Source: Thaumarchaeota archaeon CSP1-1 (GTDB lineage Archaea > Thermoproteota > Nitrososphaeria > Nitrososphaerales > Nitrosopumilaceae). Taken from it: 64,000 nt of DNA. The translations under genes and the position numbers were made by a program. Below are positions 553-10,312 of this stretch, piece after piece (within the stretch, counting starts at the first letter, position 1; each line of letters opens with the position of its first letter). The notes under the pieces were generated by a model. The model was not told the DNA's origin and ran no database searches. It saw nothing but the letters and a program-made list of their open reading frames with translations. The stretch spans positions 1 through 64,000 of the forward strand of contig LDXL01000007.1 in assembly GCA_001443365.1 (NCBI GenBank), read 5' to 3'.

Positions 553-1362
553 TTGAGTCCGCAAAAGGAGTTAATAGAATCACTCTCGTATTTTGGTCTT
601 GAAAAATCCGATGCAATAGTGTATCTAGGTCTTCTTCAAATGGGATCAGTTACAGTAGGAACAATGTCTACAAAACTAGAAATTGATAGAGGTAAAGCCT
701 ACAGGTCTCTTAATAAATTGCGGAATTTAGGTCTAGTTTCTACTACCTTTTCTAACCCAACAATTTGTCAGGCTGTAGAGCCTGAGGAAGCATTGACAAT
801 TATCATTCAAAGAAAAGAAGATGAAACTGTTACAATGCAAAAGCTTTCAAGAAAAATTGTTACAGATCTTAAGCAAATTGCTCATGAACCAAATGTTTCA
901 GAGGTTTCCTCATTTTCAATTATACAAGGGCGCTCAAACATTTATGCAAGAATTGGAAAATTTATTCAAGATGCAACAAAAACTGTATACCTTGTAACCA
1001 CTGTAGAAGATATTTTAAGAATGTATCATACCTCTATTCCAGAAAAAATAAAAATTTGCCAGCAAAATGGTTCCAAAGTCCTATTACTTTCAGAAACAAA
1101 AAGTGAAAATCTTTTGCCACTTATTGAAAGACTAGGTGCAGATGAGACACGAATTGGTAAGCTTCCTTCAAAGAGTAGGATGATTGTAGAGGATGAAAGT
1201 CAGCTAATTATGTCTGGGTCAATCAAAGAGTCAATGAATCTTAATGATGAAAATGACTCTATTTTGTACACAAATTCTTCTGAGATGATTAACAACATGT
1301 TTAGTCTGTGTAGTCACTTGTGGAAAAAATCAAAACCAATTGAGATTATAAAGACAAAATAA
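553..1362 (+). CDS. TrmB-type transcriptional regulator
   Basis: This 269-residue protein has an N-terminal winged helix-turn-helix (about residues 8-75) with LGLEKSDAIVYLGLLQMG and RGKAYRSLNKLRNLGLV, the pattern of TrmB-family sugar or metabolite-responsive archaeal regulators. Residues about 115-265 form a mixed alpha/beta domain similar to the phospholipase D-like effector region found in TrmB proteins. The start is a TTG with a TATA-like box at 26 bases. It stands alone, divergent from the archaellin gene and convergent with the secreted protein that ends at 1380. Its targets cannot be read from sequence; the palindrome at 442 and the shared elements at 2325 and 8341 are candidates. Confidence 0.8.
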   Translation: MSPQKELIESLSYFGLEKSDAIVYLGLLQMGSVTVGTMSTKLEIDRGKAYRSLNKLRNLGLVSTTFSNPTICQAVEPEEALTIIIQRKEDETVTMQKLSRKIVTDLKQIAHEPNVSEVSSFSIIQGRSNIYARIGKFIQDATKTVYLVTTVEDILRMYHTSIPEKIKICQQNGSKVLLLSETKSENLLPLIERLGADETRIGKLPSKSRMIVEDESQLIMSGSIKESMNLNDENDSILYTNSSEMINNMFSLCSHLWKKSKPIEIIKTK

Positions 1363-2324: not shown

Positions 2325-2383
2325 TTAAAAATTCCATCTCATATCCAATATGATGTTCAGAATGAACATATGATTTTTTTATT
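2325..2383 (-). promoter_or_regulatory. Shared promoter/operator element, copy A
   Basis: Read on the minus strand this segment has an A-run, then a perfect palindrome ATGTTC-N5-GAACAT (arms 2364-2369 and 2353-2358), then CATATTGGATATGAGA and an A/T-rich TATA-like stretch leading to the secreted-protein gene. Almost the same sequence, in the same order and orientation, lies before the CBS-like gene at 8415. The identity over about 45 bases is far beyond chance, so co-regulation is a reasonable inference. Confidence 0.65.
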
Positions 2384-2384
2384 C

Positions 2385-4829
2385 TTATATTGGTACTTGT
2401 TTTGTTATAGTAGGATTTTTTATTTTAATTGTGCCTTTCTTTATGAGTATATACCCCATTAGAATAATGACTGACGGGACAATGATTATCACAGGATCAA
2501 TACCACCAATTTCAGGTTTTATGAATTGTGGTTCTTCTTCAGCAAATGCCAAAAATTCAGAAGTTGAATTAACTCTTACAGTTTTGGTAACTGTACTAGG
2601 TGAATAATATGAACTGGATACACTTGCTTTGATATTTACTGCACTACCAGATGTAGAGATAATTGATGCAATTGCTTCTCCAGTGGTTCCAGTTTTTGAA
2701 TCTGATAATTGAAGTATACCACCATCTACATTCCATTGTACTCCCAATCCTGAAAGAGGAAGATCATCTTGTTTTGCTTCAATCTTTACAGTAAATACTT
2801 CACCACTTTCAATAATTTCAGGTGCATTTAGAAGGAGACTAGGTGTAAGACTTGAAATTTTAATATTTGTTGTGCTAAGTGGTAATCCTTCTGATAAAGC
2901 AGATATTTCTGTAACACCACTTGTTTTTGGTCCTGCATCAAATAAAGTATAGTATTCGCCTTTTTTAATTGTCAAAGTATGTGGAACTTGGATCATTGAT
3001 TCATCATTTACAACAAAAGTTATTTCAATGTCTTCAGTTGCAAAAACTGGAAGGTTTTGAGAATTTACAAGCTGAACTGAAAAAACGTCATTAGTTCCTG
3101 TGAAAATTGTTTCAGAGTGATCAATAATTATGTTAGCTGGTTTTAAAGATAAACTTTCAATAGTCAGGGTAGCATCTGGGAAATCGTTAACAGTAAATTG
3201 TAAAGTGTCAGATCCTGAATCGATGGCTTTAGTGTTTAACATAATTAGATCATCTCCACTAAAAACTGGTTTTGTTTCTACATCAAAGATTTTACTTGGT
3301 GAAACAAATAGATTTGAATTTTTAGGAAATTTTGTAACTTGAGAATTTTCTGTAAAATATAGAACGATTGGAAATTCAGTGTCTTTGAGAACTTTAGTAA
3401 TTAATGGTTCTGCAATTAATTGAAGTGATGTTTCATCTGATCCAAAAACTTCGACCACAGTTGGAGATGAGGATTCACTTTCTACTTCTACTACTGGATT
3501 TATTTCAAATGCACCGTCTATCCCGTTGGGAATACTATGCCCTACCTTACCAAAAACTAAAGCTGAACCTTCTCCAACTTGAAGGAAAACATCATCAATT
3601 GAAAGAAAATCGTTATCAGATGAATCTAGTTTTATTTCTAGATTCTTATCAGATCTGATTGGAAAATCGCTTTCATCTTCAAGAAATATAATTCCTAATA
3701 ATTCCTTATTTCCAGTGGCAAATATTGGTAATCCCTCAAATTTTACAAATCTATCACCATCATTTGATGGTGCATTAGCGACATTCTGATCATAAAAGAC
3801 CGCTTGAATTGTATCTGATTCTAAGGTCAGTGGTTCTCCTGAAGTTATAGTAACAAGATACTCACCTGTTTTTCCACCCACTAAGGAAAATGTATCATAA
3901 CCCCAATAGGATCCTTTTTTTATCGTGATGGTGCCTGTTTTGTCCCCAATATCGGCATTAGGACTAGTATTTTGATTTGCAAAAATATCGTTGGTTACTT
4001 TATATTTTACTGTAATATCTTTACTTGCGATAACAGGTTCTTCACTACCTTCTAATTGAAGTTGAACTATTATGTATGCTTTAGATGATCCAAAAGTATT
4101 GATTTCTTCTTGAACGAGATAAAGTTTAACTTGTAGATCATCTTGTTCGTCTACTGTTATGACATCACTTTTAGTTTCCATACCTAGCGCTGTGACAAAG
4201 ATGTTAGTTTTACCAGTATTACCTGAATCTTTTACAATAAAATGTGTACCAGTAAAATACTCGCCCTTCTTTATTACTAGATTTTCCTGAGATATGTCAA
4301 GTATGTTATTATTTGCAACACTTAGTGAGACACTAACATCTTCTGCTGCTTTTACTGGAAATCCATCAGCATCAGCTAACTCAACAGAAACTAATCCTCT
4401 GAATGGCCCAGCAGATGAAAAGGTATCTGGAACAACTTTAACAAGAAGCTGTTCCTGATTGAAAACATTTCCATAAACTGTTACAGGTAATTCCTGTGAT
4501 GAAAATCCTGGAGCTGCAAGAAATAGTTTTGTTGTACCAGCTTTAATCCCTTTAACAGTTACTTCTGATACAAATCCTGATTCACTATCTTTAACAGTGA
4601 GAACTCGGATTATTTTAGAATCTAAACTTGTAACAGTTAATCCCGGTATCTTCTCTGGCACAAGGCTTGTTCCTTTTTTTGCAAAAATGTGTATCATTCC
4701 TTCCTTGTCTTCAACTAATTTTGTGGGAATGAATCTTGTACCAAATTCAAAATTACTGTCTGCACCATATGTTAAACTAGGTGTTAAAATACTCATTATT
4801 ACCAATACTAGTATAATTCCTACCTTCAA
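2385..4829 (-). CDS. Large secreted, membrane-anchored beta-sandwich protein
   Basis: This 814-residue protein starts at a TTG and has an N-terminal signal peptide (about residues 1-23, ending LTYGA) and a single C-terminal membrane helix (about 776-796, VIIIVPSVIILMGYILI) followed by a short Lys-rich tail. The exported part is Thr/Ser/Val-rich and looks like a string of Ig-like beta domains. A recurring IKKG-x-Y motif occurs at least three times (KKGEYFTG, KKGSYWGY, KKGEYYTL), which marks an internal repeat. The architecture suggests a cell-surface protein tethered in the membrane, perhaps associated with the S-layer or an adhesin. I recognise no enzymatic motif. It lies upstream of, and on the same strand as, the repeat protein ending at 1380, but that gene has its own promoter element. 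Confidence 0.7.
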   Translation of the reverse strand: MKVGIILVLVIMSILTPSLTYGADSNFEFGTRFIPTKLVEDKEGMIHIFAKKGTSLVPEKIPGLTVTSLDSKIIRVLTVKDSESGFVSEVTVKGIKAGTTKLFLAAPGFSSQELPVTVYGNVFNQEQLLVKVVPDTFSSAGPFRGLVSVELADADGFPVKAAEDVSVSLSVANNNILDISQENLVIKKGEYFTGTHFIVKDSGNTGKTNIFVTALGMETKSDVITVDEQDDLQVKLYLVQEEINTFGSSKAYIIVQLQLEGSEEPVIASKDITVKYKVTNDIFANQNTSPNADIGDKTGTITIKKGSYWGYDTFSLVGGKTGEYLVTITSGEPLTLESDTIQAVFYDQNVANAPSNDGDRFVKFEGLPIFATGNKELLGIIFLEDESDFPIRSDKNLEIKLDSSDNDFLSIDDVFLQVGEGSALVFGKVGHSIPNGIDGAFEINPVVEVESESSSPTVVEVFGSDETSLQLIAEPLITKVLKDTEFPIVLYFTENSQVTKFPKNSNLFVSPSKIFDVETKPVFSGDDLIMLNTKAIDSGSDTLQFTVNDFPDATLTIESLSLKPANIIIDHSETIFTGTNDVFSVQLVNSQNLPVFATEDIEITFVVNDESMIQVPHTLTIKKGEYYTLFDAGPKTSGVTEISALSEGLPLSTTNIKISSLTPSLLLNAPEIIESGEVFTVKIEAKQDDLPLSGLGVQWNVDGGILQLSDSKTGTTGEAIASIISTSGSAVNIKASVSSSYYSPSTVTKTVRVNSTSEFLAFAEEEPQFIKPEIGGIDPVIIIVPSVIILMGYILIKKGTIKIKNPTITKQVPI

Positions 4830-4927: not shown

Positions 4928-7900
4928 ATGGCCCCAGCATATAACGTAGAGCAAAATAAGCTCAGCATCTTAGATGCACTTCTTTTGCGTCTATTCAATG
5001 AACAAAAAATCAAACTAAAAGTTGATTCAAAAGATAGATTAGAAATTCCTAGTAATTTAAAATCAAAGATAGAAGGAACTCTAAATGTTCGTGCCAATTT
5101 ATTATCAAAAACATTAGAACAAAAAAACGATATTTCCACAGACAAACAAATAGAAACTTTAATTGGAAATTTTTATTATTATACTAATCAATTCGATAAA
5201 GCAGCGATTTTTTATGACAAAGCTAGCAAAATGGATCCAAATTTTATTGAGCCAATATTTAACAAAGGAGATTTACTTGCAAAAATTGGAAAACATGAAG
5301 AAGCTATTTTATGTTATGATATTGCACTGAGTATTGATCCTAATTATTTTGATGCATTATGTTCTAAAGGAGATTCTCTTGTTACAATTTCTAAACATAA
5401 TGAAGCAATTGCTTGTTATGATAAAATTTTAGAAATAGATCCTAATTATTTTGATGCTTTATACAATAAAGGTCTTGCATTAACAAAGACAGGAAGACAT
5501 GAAGAAGCAATAACATTCTATGATCAAACGTGTAACTTAAAACCAAATCATATTCCATCTTTATACAACAAGGGATATTCACTTGCAAAATTAGGGAAAC
5601 ACAATGAAGCACTTACCCTTTGTGACAAAGCATTAGAAATTGATCCTGATTTTTTTGATGCATTAATTGCAAAAGGAATGGTTTTGACTATAAATGGTAG
5701 TTATGAAGAGGCATTGTATTATTTTAACAAGACTTTAGAGTTAGATCCTAAACATCCAGATGTTCTATACAACAAGGGTCTATGTTTAGCTAAGCTTGGA
5801 AAATATGAATCAGCATTATCATATTACAACAAGGCATTAGAAGTTGATCATAATCCAGAAATTTTGCTTTACAAAGGTAATGCATATGTACAACTTGGAA
5901 AGTATACTGATGCTCTTATTTCCTACGACAGTGCATTAACAATTAAACCAGATTATTTTGATGCACTATTCAGGAAGGGATTACTCCTAACACATATTGG
6001 AAAACCTGGTGATGCTATAGTATTCTATGATGATGCTCTAAAGATAAAACCGGATTATTTTGATGCGTTATTTCATAAAGGACTCTTACTTGAGCAGCAA
6101 GGAAAACAAGATGAAGCCTTAGATTGCTTTGAGCGAGCAAGTACAATTGAACCAAATCATTCTGAAGTCAAATATCATAAAGGTCGTTGCCTAGCACATC
6201 TTGGGAAATATGATGATGCTAAAGCATGTTATGACGAGGCTCTAACGATTAATCCCCAGTTTTCTGAGGCATTATTTCACAAGGGTTTGTTATATGCATT
6301 TCTTGGAACTCATGATGATGCTTTAACATATTATGATAAGGCTCTAAAAATTAATCCACAGCATTCAGATATACTTTTACACAAAGGCAGAACGCTTGCG
6401 CATCTTGGTAAGCCTCAAGAAGCCTTGAGCTATTACAATAAAGCTCTAAAGATTAATCCTCAACATTCAGAAGTTCTATTTCATAAAGGAATGTTGCTTG
6501 AACATATGGGAAAACATGGTGATGCTATTGCAGATTATGATAAAGCGCTTAAGATTATTCCAAATTATGTTGAAGTTCTATACCACAAAGGTTTGCTACT
6601 TGAACAGCTTGGAAATCACGGTGATGCTATATTATGTTATGATAGAGCTTTAAAGACAGTACCTGATAATTTTGATGTGCTTTTTCGCAAAGGAATATTA
6701 CTTGCACGTTTTGGAAAACATGGTGACGCTATAGTTTGCTATGATGATGCTCTAAAAATAGCACCTGACAATTTTGATGCTATGTTTCAAAAGGGATTAG
6801 TACTTGAACATCTTGGAAACTACAAAGATGCAATAAAATGTTTTGATAAAGCAATTGATAAAAATCCTAAACATTCTGAGGTATTATTACACAAAGGTTT
6901 GGCTTTATTTTCTATTAATGAATACGAAACTGCAATTAAATTATTCGATCAAGTTTTAACGAATATTCCAAATCATATACTAGCTCTATTCAACAAGGGA
7001 TTGATTTTCGGAAAACTTGGTCTAAATGATGATGCAATACGTTGCTTTGATAAGGTCTTATCCGTAGATGAAAACCATACACTTTCATTATTACACAAAG
7101 GTCTTACATTCACTCGTCTTAAAAAATTCAATGAAGCAATCTTATGTTTCAATAAGGTTCTTGAGATTGAACCAGATAACATTTCGGCTCTAGTTAAGAA
7201 GGCAGATTCTCTTGGAAGTTTGGGAATTACAAATGATGCTATCGCATTTTATGATAAGGCATTAAAGATCAGTCCAGAAAATGTTGAGGCATTATACAAC
7301 AAAGCAATATCTCTTTCAAGCATTTCAAAACACCAAAATGCGATTTACTGCTTTGATAAAGTGCTTGAAATTAACCCACATCATAGTAATGCAGTGTATA
7401 ATAAGGGTCGTTCACTAGTCCAGCAATCAATTTATCCCTTGGCACTTGCTTGTTTTGATAAGGCCTTTGAGTTAGAGCCTGATAATCTTGAGCCGTTAAT
7501 TCAAAAAGGCTTAGTGTTTTCTAAATTGAGAAACCACAAAGAAGCACTTGCTTGCTTTAATTATGTACTTGATAAAGAACCAGGCAATTTTACGGCCTTA
7601 TACAACAAGGGACTCTCATTATTGGCCATAGGTCAATATGAAAAGGCACTTTTACAATTTGATAGTGCACTAAAACAAGAACCATCTAATGTTGATGTAT
7701 TGTTAAACAAGGGACGTGCATTTTCAATTCTAGGTCAATACGAAAAATCATTGTCAAGTTTTGATGGAGTACTCGATATTGATCCAGAAAATTCAGATGC
7801 ACTATTCAGTAAAGCACTCTCATTAGTAACTCTCGGGAAATATGAACAATCAATTCCATTCTTTGATAAAGCCCTAAATATTGTTCCTGCCGATATAGAA

Positions 7901-8257
7901 ATCCTTCACAACAAAGGAATAGCATTACAGGCTATTTGTAAATATGAAGATGCGATTTTTTGTTTTGATAAGATATTATCAATAGATAAAGAAAATTCTG
8001 AGGTTTTGTATAAAAAGGCAAAAACAGTGTTAATGCAAGGAAACATATTTGATTCATTAAGTATTCTTCGAAAGGTAATCGAGCTTGAACCAATCTATAA
8101 AGAGATAATTAAGAAAGAAATTCTATTTAATAGATTAAGAGATAACCTACTTTTCAAAGATATAATCAGAGGAAAAACTGAATTTGATAAACTTGATGAC
8201 GAAAAACCATTTTATGGTTTTGTAAATAAAACTAAGATTATTGAAAATAATTTCTAA
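4928..8257 (+). CDS. Giant tetratricopeptide (TPR) repeat protein
   Basis: After about 75 residues that resemble no domain I know, the 1109-residue chain is an almost unbroken array of 34-residue TPR units, about 29-30 of them, up to near residue 1070. Each has the pattern ALxxKGxxLxxxGxxxEAIxxYDKALxIxPxxxx. No signal peptide or membrane helix is visible, so it is probably a cytosolic scaffold for protein-protein contacts. Several neighbouring units are close copies (for instance two adjacent copies containing DALKIKPDYFDALF), which points to recent tandem duplication. It is transcribed divergently from the surface protein and upstream of the CBS/protease unit, which has its own promoter. The ligand is unknown. 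Confidence 0.85.
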   Translation: MAPAYNVEQNKLSILDALLLRLFNEQKIKLKVDSKDRLEIPSNLKSKIEGTLNVRANLLSKTLEQKNDISTDKQIETLIGNFYYYTNQFDKAAIFYDKASKMDPNFIEPIFNKGDLLAKIGKHEEAILCYDIALSIDPNYFDALCSKGDSLVTISKHNEAIACYDKILEIDPNYFDALYNKGLALTKTGRHEEAITFYDQTCNLKPNHIPSLYNKGYSLAKLGKHNEALTLCDKALEIDPDFFDALIAKGMVLTINGSYEEALYYFNKTLELDPKHPDVLYNKGLCLAKLGKYESALSYYNKALEVDHNPEILLYKGNAYVQLGKYTDALISYDSALTIKPDYFDALFRKGLLLTHIGKPGDAIVFYDDALKIKPDYFDALFHKGLLLEQQGKQDEALDCFERASTIEPNHSEVKYHKGRCLAHLGKYDDAKACYDEALTINPQFSEALFHKGLLYAFLGTHDDALTYYDKALKINPQHSDILLHKGRTLAHLGKPQEALSYYNKALKINPQHSEVLFHKGMLLEHMGKHGDAIADYDKALKIIPNYVEVLYHKGLLLEQLGNHGDAILCYDRALKTVPDNFDVLFRKGILLARFGKHGDAIVCYDDALKIAPDNFDAMFQKGLVLEHLGNYKDAIKCFDKAIDKNPKHSEVLLHKGLALFSINEYETAIKLFDQVLTNIPNHILALFNKGLIFGKLGLNDDAIRCFDKVLSVDENHTLSLLHKGLTFTRLKKFNEAILCFNKVLEIEPDNISALVKKADSLGSLGITNDAIAFYDKALKISPENVEALYNKAISLSSISKHQNAIYCFDKVLEINPHHSNAVYNKGRSLVQQSIYPLALACFDKAFELEPDNLEPLIQKGLVFSKLRNHKEALACFNYVLDKEPGNFTALYNKGLSLLAIGQYEKALLQFDSALKQEPSNVDVLLNKGRAFSILGQYEKSLSSFDGVLDIDPENSDALFSKALSLVTLGKYEQSIPFFDKALNIVPADIEILHNKGIALQAICKYEDAIFCFDKILSIDKENSEVLYKKAKTVLMQGNIFDSLSILRKVIELEPIYKEIIKKEILFNRLRDNLLFKDIIRGKTEFDKLDDEKPFYGFVNKTKIIENNF

Positions 8258-8340: not shown

Positions 8341-8400
8341 AAAAAATCGTATGTTCACTACGAACATCATATTGGATATGAGAGGGATTTTTAATTAAAT
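8341..8400 (+). promoter_or_regulatory. Shared promoter/operator element, copy B
   Basis: Palindrome ATGTTC-N5-GAACAT (arms 8351-8356 and 8362-8367) is preceded by an A-run and followed by CATATTGGATATGAGA and then an A/T-rich TATA-like stretch ending near the ATG at 8415. It matches copy A at 2325-2383 in sequence, order and orientation. The palindrome centre is about 56 bases before the ATG, just upstream of the TATA region, where an activator or repressor would bind. Confidence 0.65.
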
Positions 8401-8414
8401 TATATTCAACAGGT

Positions 8415-9344
8415 ATGAAAATGATTAACAATCAAAAAATTACAAGTGCATGGAAAAAGAATCTAAATAAAATCTTAAACAAAAGTTCTGACACAAAAGA
8501 TAATCAATTATTATTCCAATCAATCAATACTGGAAAAAACCTTGAATTACAAGAATGTCTTTTTGATGATTTATTACCAATTTCTCTCTCCTCATCACCA
8601 ATTTCAAGTATTGGAAGTATCGATAATGTTTGGATTGCGTGTTCAATGCTATCAAGAGTATCAGATACCACAAACAACTTGGTTGTATTAGAAAAAGAAT
8701 ATCCTTTAGGAATAATAGGTGCAAGAGAAATTTTGCGTGGACTTCTCAAAAACCCTACACCTTACTATTTTCATGATATTTTAGCCCAAGAAATAATGAA
8801 CAGAAGGTTTTATCTTGATACTAGAAACGCTAGACTTGATAAACTACTTGAACAAATGCATAAGACAAAAAATGAATTTACTATATTACAAAATACTAAA
8901 CATAGTTTCTCTGCAGTTTCCATTAGAGAAATTCTTGAAATTGGTGCGCTTTGTAAAACTGATTTCCAAGCTTCTGATTTAGCTGACCCAAAAATCAAAA
9001 TTTTCAGACGAGATGATACTGTTGAAGATATAATAAAATCATTGATACATGATAATACCGAAGTCTTAGTACTAGAAAATGAATCTTTATTCATTGATCC
9101 TATGGCAATTATTGAAAAAATTGCTGGAGATTTAAACTACCTAAAAGATTGTAATAACTTTTTAGATTTGAATGCTAGTATTTTCAAACTTCAACAACCC
9201 AAATTAATTCCTGAAAAATTATCACTCTCTGAAATTTGTCAAACCATGCTTTACATGAAACATCCCTACATAATGACATCAAACAAATTGTTGACACCTA
9301 GAAATATACTAGAAATTTTGAGTAAGGATTTGAAAATTGAATGA
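8415..9344 (+). CDS. CBS-domain-like protein, partner of membrane protease
   Basis: The 309-residue protein shows four successive segments with the beta-alpha-beta pattern of CBS motifs, roughly residues 55-108, 112-170, 185-235 and 255-305; the clearest is the first, with DNVWIACSMLSRV then LVVLEKEYPLGIIGAREILR. CBS pairs usually bind adenosyl ligands and regulate a partner. The similarity is weak and partly inferred. No signal peptide is seen, so the protein is cytosolic. An ATG two codons in (8421) is an alternative start. Its stop overlaps the start of the metalloprotease gene by 4 bases, so the two are translationally coupled. It is controlled by the shared palindromic element. Confidence 0.55.
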   Translation: MKMINNQKITSAWKKNLNKILNKSSDTKDNQLLFQSINTGKNLELQECLFDDLLPISLSSSPISSIGSIDNVWIACSMLSRVSDTTNNLVVLEKEYPLGIIGAREILRGLLKNPTPYYFHDILAQEIMNRRFYLDTRNARLDKLLEQMHKTKNEFTILQNTKHSFSAVSIREILEIGALCKTDFQASDLADPKIKIFRRDDTVEDIIKSLIHDNTEVLVLENESLFIDPMAIIEKIAGDLNYLKDCNNFLDLNASIFKLQQPKLIPEKLSLSEICQTMLYMKHPYIMTSNKLLTPRNILEILSKDLKIE

Positions 9345-10312
9345 AAGAGATTAGCAGATTAAAATCACATGTAGATATAATGAAAAAAGAACTTGATTAC
9401 ACTACCAAACAGATCAAACTTTTAGAAAAAAATCGAAAAGTTTCTGAGTGGGAGAAAATTGATCATATTAATGGAAAATCAATTGATGAGTTAAAACATC
9501 AAGAAAAGAATCTATCTCAAGAGATTACTCAAATTCAAAAAGAAATTAAAAAATCACAATCAAAAACCTTGATAATTACCGAATTATCTCTTCTGCCAGT
9601 AGTTGTTTTACTTATTTTAATTTCAGGTTTAGGAAACTCTATTATGGATTTTACAAATGATGAGACTACATCATTTAAGACAAGGCATTTAATTGAGAAT
9701 CTAAGAGGCGATACTGTAGATACATGGAAGTCATGGAGGCTGGTTGGTACTACACTAAACGTAAATGTTCTAAATGCTAAAGGATTATCAGAAAATAGAA
9801 TTGATGTAATAAAAAATGCAATAACTTCAGAAGAATCACTTGAAATTGATGATTCACTCACTCATAAAGGTCCTAAGGGATTTAGCTCAACATACTTTAC
9901 AGGATGGGCAGGTGCACTGAAGAATATAGCATCAAAAGATACGTTATACAATATCCCTACTGACTTTAATGTAATCACCTCAAATGGTGGAGAAGGAGAT
10001 GTAATAATTACTCTTTCAAATCTGAGAGATGGGGACGGTTATACGGGCTATACAAAATCAGTAGTTGATGGAAACGAAATTCTAAAGTCATTCATTACAA
10101 TTTATGATGTAACTAACTTAACTGATGAACAATTAGGTACTATTCTTAGACATGAATTTGGTCATGCACTTGGTCTTGGACACTCTACTGCTCCAGAAGA
10201 TCTAATGGCGCCGAATATTGATATGACAGTCCCTTATATTTCTGAATGCAATACCAATGCAATTAGAGATTTGTATAATGGGATACAAGGAAGTACAGTT
10301 TGTGAAAAATAG
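9341..10312 (+). CDS. Membrane-tethered metzincin (matrixin-like) metalloprotease
   Basis: The 323-residue protein has three parts: an N-terminal charged coiled coil (about residues 1-75), one membrane helix (about 80-100, LSLLPVVVLLILISGLG) and a C-terminal protease domain. The zinc site HEFGHALGLGH matches HExxHxxGxxH, and the following DLMAP supplies the Met-turn expected of metzincins such as matrixins. With the basic coiled coil inside, the catalytic domain should face outside the cell. It overlaps the CBS-like gene by 4 bases, which suggests that an intracellular sensor and an external protease work together. Substrate is unknown; the surface proteins upstream are candidates. Confidence 0.8.
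   Translation: MKEISRLKSHVDIMKKELDYTTKQIKLLEKNRKVSEWEKIDHINGKSIDELKHQEKNLSQEITQIQKEIKKSQSKTLIITELSLLPVVVLLILISGLGNSIMDFTNDETTSFKTRHLIENLRGDTVDTWKSWRLVGTTLNVNVLNAKGLSENRIDVIKNAITSEESLEIDDSLTHKGPKGFSSTYFTGWAGALKNIASKDTLYNIPTDFNVITSNGGEGDVIITLSNLRDGDGYTGYTKSVVDGNEILKSFITIYDVTNLTDEQLGTILRHEFGHALGLGHSTAPEDLMAPNIDMTVPYISECNTNAIRDLYNGIQGSTVCEK

Follow-up and report, generated by a model that had tools for sequence, protein, structure and literature searches.

A four-CBS protein encoded with a membrane-tethered matrixin-type protease in Nitrosopumilaceae, and its possible role in signalling from the cell interior to the outer surface

The four-CBS fold is represented by SSO3205, MJ1225 and the AMPK gamma subunit, and archaeal CBS modules also serve as the ribosome factors Dri, Sri and HibA (PMC13324472). 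CBS domains fused to membrane metalloproteases are known in the M50 family, as in SpoIVFB and mjS2P (PMC11486902), and one CBS–M50 protease fusion is described in Haloferax (PMC9263693). Internal control of an external protease is known from the Lap and Dvh systems, where the protease cuts a co-encoded adhesin (PMC13090378), while matrixin-type genes of sponge Thaumarchaeota are mentioned a single time, as degradative enzymes (PMC6697440). In a literature search made up mostly of titles and the first parts of abstracts, with thin coverage of subscription papers, the combination of a CBS protein with an external matrixin was not found described, and neither was, within the same scope, an external protease as the output of a two-component system, which leaves their absence unproven.

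The window, that is, the whole 64,000-nucleotide stretch of Thaumarchaeota archaeon CSP1-1 DNA analysed here, contains two ORFs that correspond to such a combination. Their coordinates and the 4-nt overlap (ATGA) between the stop codon of the first and the start codon of the second, both given in the original prediction, were confirmed. The pair and its parts are as follows.

8415..9344, + strand: P0001, four-CBS (AMPK-gamma-like) protein of 309 aa (AlphaFold2 model, PDB fold matches)
8415..8549, + strand: basic N-terminal extension of P0001, residues 1–45, found in protease-paired members only
9341..10312, + strand: P0002, membrane-tethered matrixin-type metzincin of 323 aa (Pfam M10, fold matches)
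9341..9565, + strand: cytosolic helical (coiled-coil-like) arm of P0002, residues 1–75 (AlphaFold2 helices)
9566..9622, + strand: single transmembrane segment of P0002, about residues 76–94 (hydropathy 2.6 over 19 residues)
10151..10207, + strand: zinc site HEFGHALGLGH (residues 271–281) and Met-turn (Met289) of P0002 (sequence, conservation)

P0001 has the same four-CBS fold as SSO3205, MJ1225 and AMPK gamma (residues about 35–309), but these proteins are only 12–13% identical to it, the clade of protease-paired relatives has an N-terminal extension and an altered CBS3 motif, and, unlike the AMPK gamma type, it is encoded with a membrane protease and not with a kinase. With Dri, Sri and HibA it shares the four-CBS module and the extra residues between CBS3 and CBS4 (PMC13324472), but it differs from all of them in having a protease partner, from HibA in lacking an HPF/RaiA domain (residues 46–309 of its 309 aa form the CBS module and Pfam gave no HPF/RaiA match), and from Dri in containing one CBS module where Dri has two fused ones. 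P0002 resembles the matrixins (M10A) karilysin and MMP-9 in the catalytic fold, the HExxHxxGxxH motif and the Met-turn, but carries an N-terminal membrane anchor and a cytosolic arm and lacks a cysteine switch. SpoIVFB and mjS2P (PMC11486902) are likewise membrane metalloproteases that carry CBS domains, but they are intramembrane M50 enzymes with these domains fused, whereas the locus described here encodes a separate four-CBS protein and an outward-facing metzincin. The likeness to LapD–LapG–LapA and DvhD–DvhG (PMC13090378), in which a nucleotide signal from inside acts on an external protease whose gene accompanies that of a large surface adhesin, is one of logic only: their protease belongs to a different class (BTLCP, by prediction, for DvhG), their ligand is c-di-GMP, and a sequence relationship is not claimed.

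The first protein had been predicted to contain tandem CBS motifs. The CBS fold was borne out by the AlphaFold2 model and the PDB comparison, but it comprises four repeats, as in the AMPK-gamma-like module, instead of one tandem pair, and the reading of P0001 as a two-CBS protein was rejected on these grounds. The model, computed from 52 homologues (set A1, which includes 35 paired and 17 distinct solo sequences and excludes proteins below 250 aa such as the fragments L007, L018 and L039), reached a pLDDT of 86.7 and a pTM of 0.83 and placed the repeats at residues about 65–112, 134–178, 195–239 and 263–307. Both the elements of the model and the PDB matches over residues 35–309 agree with four beta-alpha-beta-beta-alpha repeats forming two Bateman modules. 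The best solved fold was SSO3205 with AMP (PDB 3ddj; Z 24.0, rmsd 3.2, 259 aligned residues), followed by MJ1225 (3lfz, Z 23.1), the Methanosarcina ribosome factor SriD (9zng, Z 22.1), AMPK gamma (Z 20.9) and Dri (9e7f, Z 20.5). Profile searches, proposed along with the original prediction, gave a single Pfam CBS match below the threshold (E=8e-4; 20.1 bits, cut-off 24) and nothing useful in NCBIfam; a sequence-only profile search also found CBS proteins (best 9zni_6, E=2e-5), and the profile of the 17 solo members had 9znf_5 as its top CBS match (E=2.6e-5). A phage origin of P0001 was rejected, as a phage collection gave no match.

The description of the second protein as a protease with a helical arm, one membrane helix and an external matrixin zinc site with a Met-turn was upheld: Pfam Peptidase_M10 (PF00413) matched P0002 with E=1.6e-8 (35.1 bits, cut-off 24), residues 76–94 are hydrophobic, and the window sequence contains HExxHxxGxxH (HEFGHALGLGH) and Met289. 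Residues 110–313 superimposed on prokarilysin (PDB 4r3v; Z 15.0, rmsd 3.2, 161 aligned residues) and proMMP-9 (5ue3, Z 14.9), as expected for an MMP-type metzincin fold; P0002 is thus a single-pass metzincin with a matrixin fold. In the AlphaFold2 model two N-terminal helices span residues 2–30 and 48–94, the second entering the membrane, and confidence is low at 33–43 and 75–109. Residues invariant in 50 aligned proteases include Arg270, Glu272, Gly274, Gly278, Asp287, Met289, Cys303 and Cys321, and the two invariant cysteines suit a catalytic domain located outside. The cysteine-switch propeptide is a feature of animal MMPs; P0002, in which Cys303 and Cys321 are the sole cysteines, has none. 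Since pro-forms rank among the best fold matches, a putative aspartate-switch latency segment near residues 120–128 was considered. Assignment to the archaemetzincins (NF033823) was rejected at 18.4 bits against a cut-off of 145, and assignment to the site-2 proteases (M50) was rejected in view of the single transmembrane segment and the M10, not M50, match.

Among 250 Nitrosopumilaceae genomes, matches to P0001 were found in 103 and to P0002 in 133, and the two genes form a pair in at least 37 (the window and 36 fetched loci, i.e. those where both proteins matched side by side). The paired genomes belong to four genera, with at least 4 in g1 (the genus of the window), 2 in g22, 13 in g17 and 18 in g9. 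Both genes lie on one strand in all 36 fetched loci, and the intergenic distance lies between −16 and +38 nt in all but one of them, i.e. in 35; in the remaining one, L096, it is 251 nt and both genes are broken. Among the protease matches listed, all 19 with E below 1e-110 were paired. The pair is thus conserved in other genomes, as the original prediction had asked, and its recurrence in at least 36 further genomes at such short distances indicates that the adjacency exceeds chance. That prediction had also named the occurrence of one gene without the other as an argument against it, and this was partly found: set A1 contains the 17 distinct solo CBS proteins, and there are proteases without a CBS gene, including the clade described below. 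We regard a functional partnership of the two proteins as likely.

The neighbouring features of the window are listed here.

2385..4829, − strand: large secreted Ig-like protein of 814 aa with a C-terminal membrane helix, proposed surface substrate (hydrophobic segments, Big_1)
4928..8257, + strand: TPR protein of 1109 aa, encoded next to the Ig gene and divergently from it (Pfam TPR, gene orders)
553..1362, + strand: TrmB-type HTH regulator (Pfam TrmB, 3.9e-14)
8349..8369 (core 8352–8366), no strand: operator-like palindrome GTATGTTC-N5-GAACAT(CA), 45 nt upstream of the start codon of the CBS gene
2354..2368, no strand: second palindrome copy, before the gene of a secreted 309-aa protein (1380–2309, − strand)

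The Ig-like protein of the window has hydrophobic segments at residues 1–19 and 777–795 and a Big_1 match under the family cut-off (E=1e-4). In 31 of the 36 fetched loci the gene directly upstream of the CBS gene, and on its strand, encodes such a secreted Ig-like protein with weak similarity to Big_1; in three of the 31 it is incomplete (L081 and L082 at contig starts, and L087 with 237 aa); complete Ig-like neighbours measure about 776–865 aa. It is missing from five loci: L106 and L112 stop at contig ends, and L077, L078 and L096 are from genus g1. In this genus, and hence in the window too, the divergent TPR/Ig pair is inverted, and for this reason the TPR gene stands before the CBS gene there. 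In genus g9 a gene for a TrmB-type regulator is located directly upstream of the Ig gene. The order TPR, Ig and then protease also occurs without a CBS gene, in five distinct proteases (L119, L056/L129, L131, L133 and L147) that form one clade with a support of 98. The Ig family was found in 93 of the 250 genomes, some without the CBS pair, and is therefore not exclusive to it. In L036/L087 (G258 C28) a run of cheC, cheY, cheW, cheR and cheD-like genes, identified by eye, directly precedes the shortened Ig gene. The secreted 309-aa protein encoded at 1380–2309 of the window (− strand) contains two W-rich repeats, and longer relatives of it adjoin REC–matrixin pairs in g9 (L118, L122, L123, L125 and L130).

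The palindrome core TGTTC-N5-GAACA occurs seven times in the window genome, compared with once for the reversed control pattern; three of the seven sites (L164, L165 and L166) lie inside genes or precede none. The long form, GTATGTTC-N5-GAACATAC, scored at up to 3 mismatches in 16, is present upstream of 32 of the 35 paired CBS genes and of four of the five CBS-less Ig-locus proteases, where it lies 36–37 nt before the protease gene; at the same threshold it was seen before 0 of the 17 solo CBS genes and 0 of the 44 other proteases with upstream sequence. An RNA hairpin was rejected, since there is no co-variation between the five-base arms and pairing is disrupted by the bases that flank them; the palindrome is therefore more likely a DNA site. 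Of 20 further sites, hand-picked from the listing and not random, 16 are at the starts of signalling or motility genes, namely eight histidine kinases, six small response regulators (one CheY-like), a FlaF-like protein and a KaiC-like ATPase (by Pfam on one representative of most kinds, L198 and L209 by eye; in L203 and L211 the palindrome overlaps the mechanically chosen gene start). In the window genome one copy lies 61 nt before a CheY-like gene in an apparent chemotaxis cluster. It is possible that these sites, found upstream of genes for CheY-like and FlaF-like proteins, histidine kinases and response regulators (L163:3491, i.e. G000 C2:10590, and L198–L216), mark a motility/chemotaxis regulon. 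The copies at 2354–2368 and 8352–8366 flank the inverted Ig/TPR segment in g1, and the inversion may have run through these two operator copies.

These data correct the original picture of a two-gene unit: besides the CBS–protease pair, the natural unit includes the Ig-like surface protein and the palindromic operator-like site. It is possible, at somewhat less than even odds, that the Ig-like protein is the substrate of the protease. A functional pair could alternatively act on another envelope, S-layer or archaellum protein, in keeping with the detachment of the Ig gene from the pair in the genus of the window, the presence of the Ig family in genomes without the pair, and the palindromes before a FlaF-like gene in one genome and before two-component genes in others. 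Nevertheless, no other gene separates the Ig gene from the pair that follows it in 31/36 loci, and an Ig gene precedes the CBS-less type too; we consider another substrate improbable.

The proteases that are encoded without a CBS gene mostly have signalling partners of another kind. A REC gene is located 51–52 nt downstream of all five CBS-less Ig-locus proteases (Pfam REC in L133). Of 45 distinct sampled protease ORFs that are CBS-less and outside the Ig loci, 33 have a REC or histidine-kinase domain, either fused to the protease or encoded no more than 100 nt away in its operon; this sample comes from 40 stretches hand-picked among the matches listed and not random, and from L046 and L114–L116, and partner domains were called by profiles built on seeds of Pfam-identified kinds. 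The corresponding background count for the window, 0 of 66 ORFs, says little because the window contains no two-component genes. Nine proteins are HisKA~TM~matrixin fusions (L117, L127, L132, L136, L139, L144, L145, L146 and L151; in L127 Pfam gives HisKA at 1.4e-12 and M10 at 2.8e-9). All nine kept the H-box, no ATPase motif was seen in any of them when it was sought, and eight directly follow a REC gene, so that a phosphorelay ending on an external protease is possible. L046 is a REC~matrixin fusion (Pfam) with a broken zinc site, HEFGRALGLGN. The cytosolic arm differs as well: 35–47 residues precede the transmembrane segment in the CBS-less Ig-locus proteases versus 71–99 in the paired ones, and the short arm of this clade fits rather than contradicts control through the arm. 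As L138 and L149, proteases of other types, likewise have short arms, this link between arm and partner is only suggestive; long cytosolic arms, too, are present in family members without CBS.

The full zinc site is kept in 30 of the 37 paired proteases and in 45 of the 48 other family members. The seven paired proteases that lost a zinc ligand all belong to genus g9 (the site of L098, for instance, reads NEFGHALGLPY), which indicates that proteolysis is not preserved everywhere. In a weak protease tree, from which proteases below 260 aa were excluded, the paired members need four changes, and a single clade is not established. Four further matrixins (L137, L154, L155 and L156; 592–646 aa) come after membrane domains with several hydrophobic segments.

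The retention of the pair despite these seven losses, together with the location of other family members in sensing operons, beside HK and REC genes, would be compatible with signalling in the opposite direction, in which binding or cutting by the external domain is relayed along the arm to a CBS protein acting internally, catalysis being optional. We consider this unlikely, about as much so as another substrate, because most paired proteases and nearly all other members have the full zinc site, the pair has no linked internal effector, and REC and the ATPase-less HisKA are receivers of signals, which fits an output rather than an input. Since CBS, REC or HisKA proteins seem to address the same kind of arm, the protease family as an inside-to-outside output is the preferred reading, and we read its members as outer-surface matrixins controlled from inside. 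On balance, this direction of control is slightly favoured.

The CBS proteins themselves carry a mark of the pairing. In the tree of the CBS module without its extension, a branch with 100/99 support separates the 35 paired from the 17 solo sequences. An N-terminal extension of 35–65 aa is present in 35/35 paired proteins compared with 0–13 aa in 17/17 solo ones, with a median net charge of +4 versus 0 (start codons were picked mechanically in both groups alike). The paired CBS proteins are therefore one clade with its own N-terminal extension. The CBS3 motif (S/N)DR is also distinctive, its D-R at residues 229–230 being invariant in the 17 solo proteins and lost in the paired ones. In CBS4 most relatives have [ST]PxD, the Asp being present in 32/35 paired and 17/17 solo proteins, while P0001 of the window reads T-P-R-N (Asn297). 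The adenosyl-ligand motif of four-CBS modules of the AMPK gamma type we take to be [ST]xx[DN]. The loss of the CBS3 motif in the paired clade and Asn297 in CBS4 of the window suggest that nucleotide binding may be altered, and we give an adenine nucleotide an even chance of being the ligand of P0001. The solo four-CBS paralogues include G000 C1:103502–104278 (L019), C1:65771–66562 (L025) and their relatives; they are candidates for hibernation factors because a 2026 survey lists Nitrosopumilaceae as without identifiable ones (PMC13324472, section 11). That survey entry, the Sri and Dri structures among the nearest folds (9zng, 9e7f) and the existence of stand-alone paralogues could also suggest that P0001 is a ribosome- or translation-linked module similar to Dri, Sri or HibA merely sharing a transcript with the protease, but this is the least probable of the alternatives, as the extension is exclusive to the paired clade, which moreover lost the solo CBS3 motif, and the CBS gene lies within 38 nt of the protease gene in 35/36 loci.

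The original interpretation, in which a nucleotide-sensing partner controls an external protease through its coiled coil, is supported in part, by the CBS fold, the external matrixin, the conserved pairing and the partner-specific N-terminal extension, and had to be revised in the two-CBS size. In the mechanism that we propose, the CBS protein, probably with a bound adenine nucleotide, would dock via its basic extension onto the cytosolic arm of the protease, and the docked protein would set the activity of the outer catalytic domain. By this, the internal energy state could decide whether the Ig-like surface protein, or some other protein of the envelope, is cleaved. In the sister loci, response-regulator or HisKA phosphotransfer domains would address the same kind of arm instead. 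The whole chain, from CBS protein and ligand through arm and protease to surface cleavage, falls somewhat short of an even chance. A still more tentative proposal is that in Nitrosopumilaceae the tethered matrixin is a general signalling output that switches the proteolysis of adhesins, with CBS, REC or HisKA acting on the arm, and that its CBS branch is co-expressed with chemotaxis and two-component genes via a shared operator.

If true, this would be an unreported route by which the interior of an archaeal cell remodels its own surface, an archaeal equivalent, assembled from unrelated components, of the Lap logic known in bacteria, and the external protease would be a type of output for two-component systems not found in the literature searched. 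The analysis also exposes a divergent four-CBS protein family in the Nitrosopumilaceae, a group surveyed as being without known hibernation factors (PMC13324472). For the ammonia-oxidising archaea, the proposed system would provide a handle on surface adhesion and motility.
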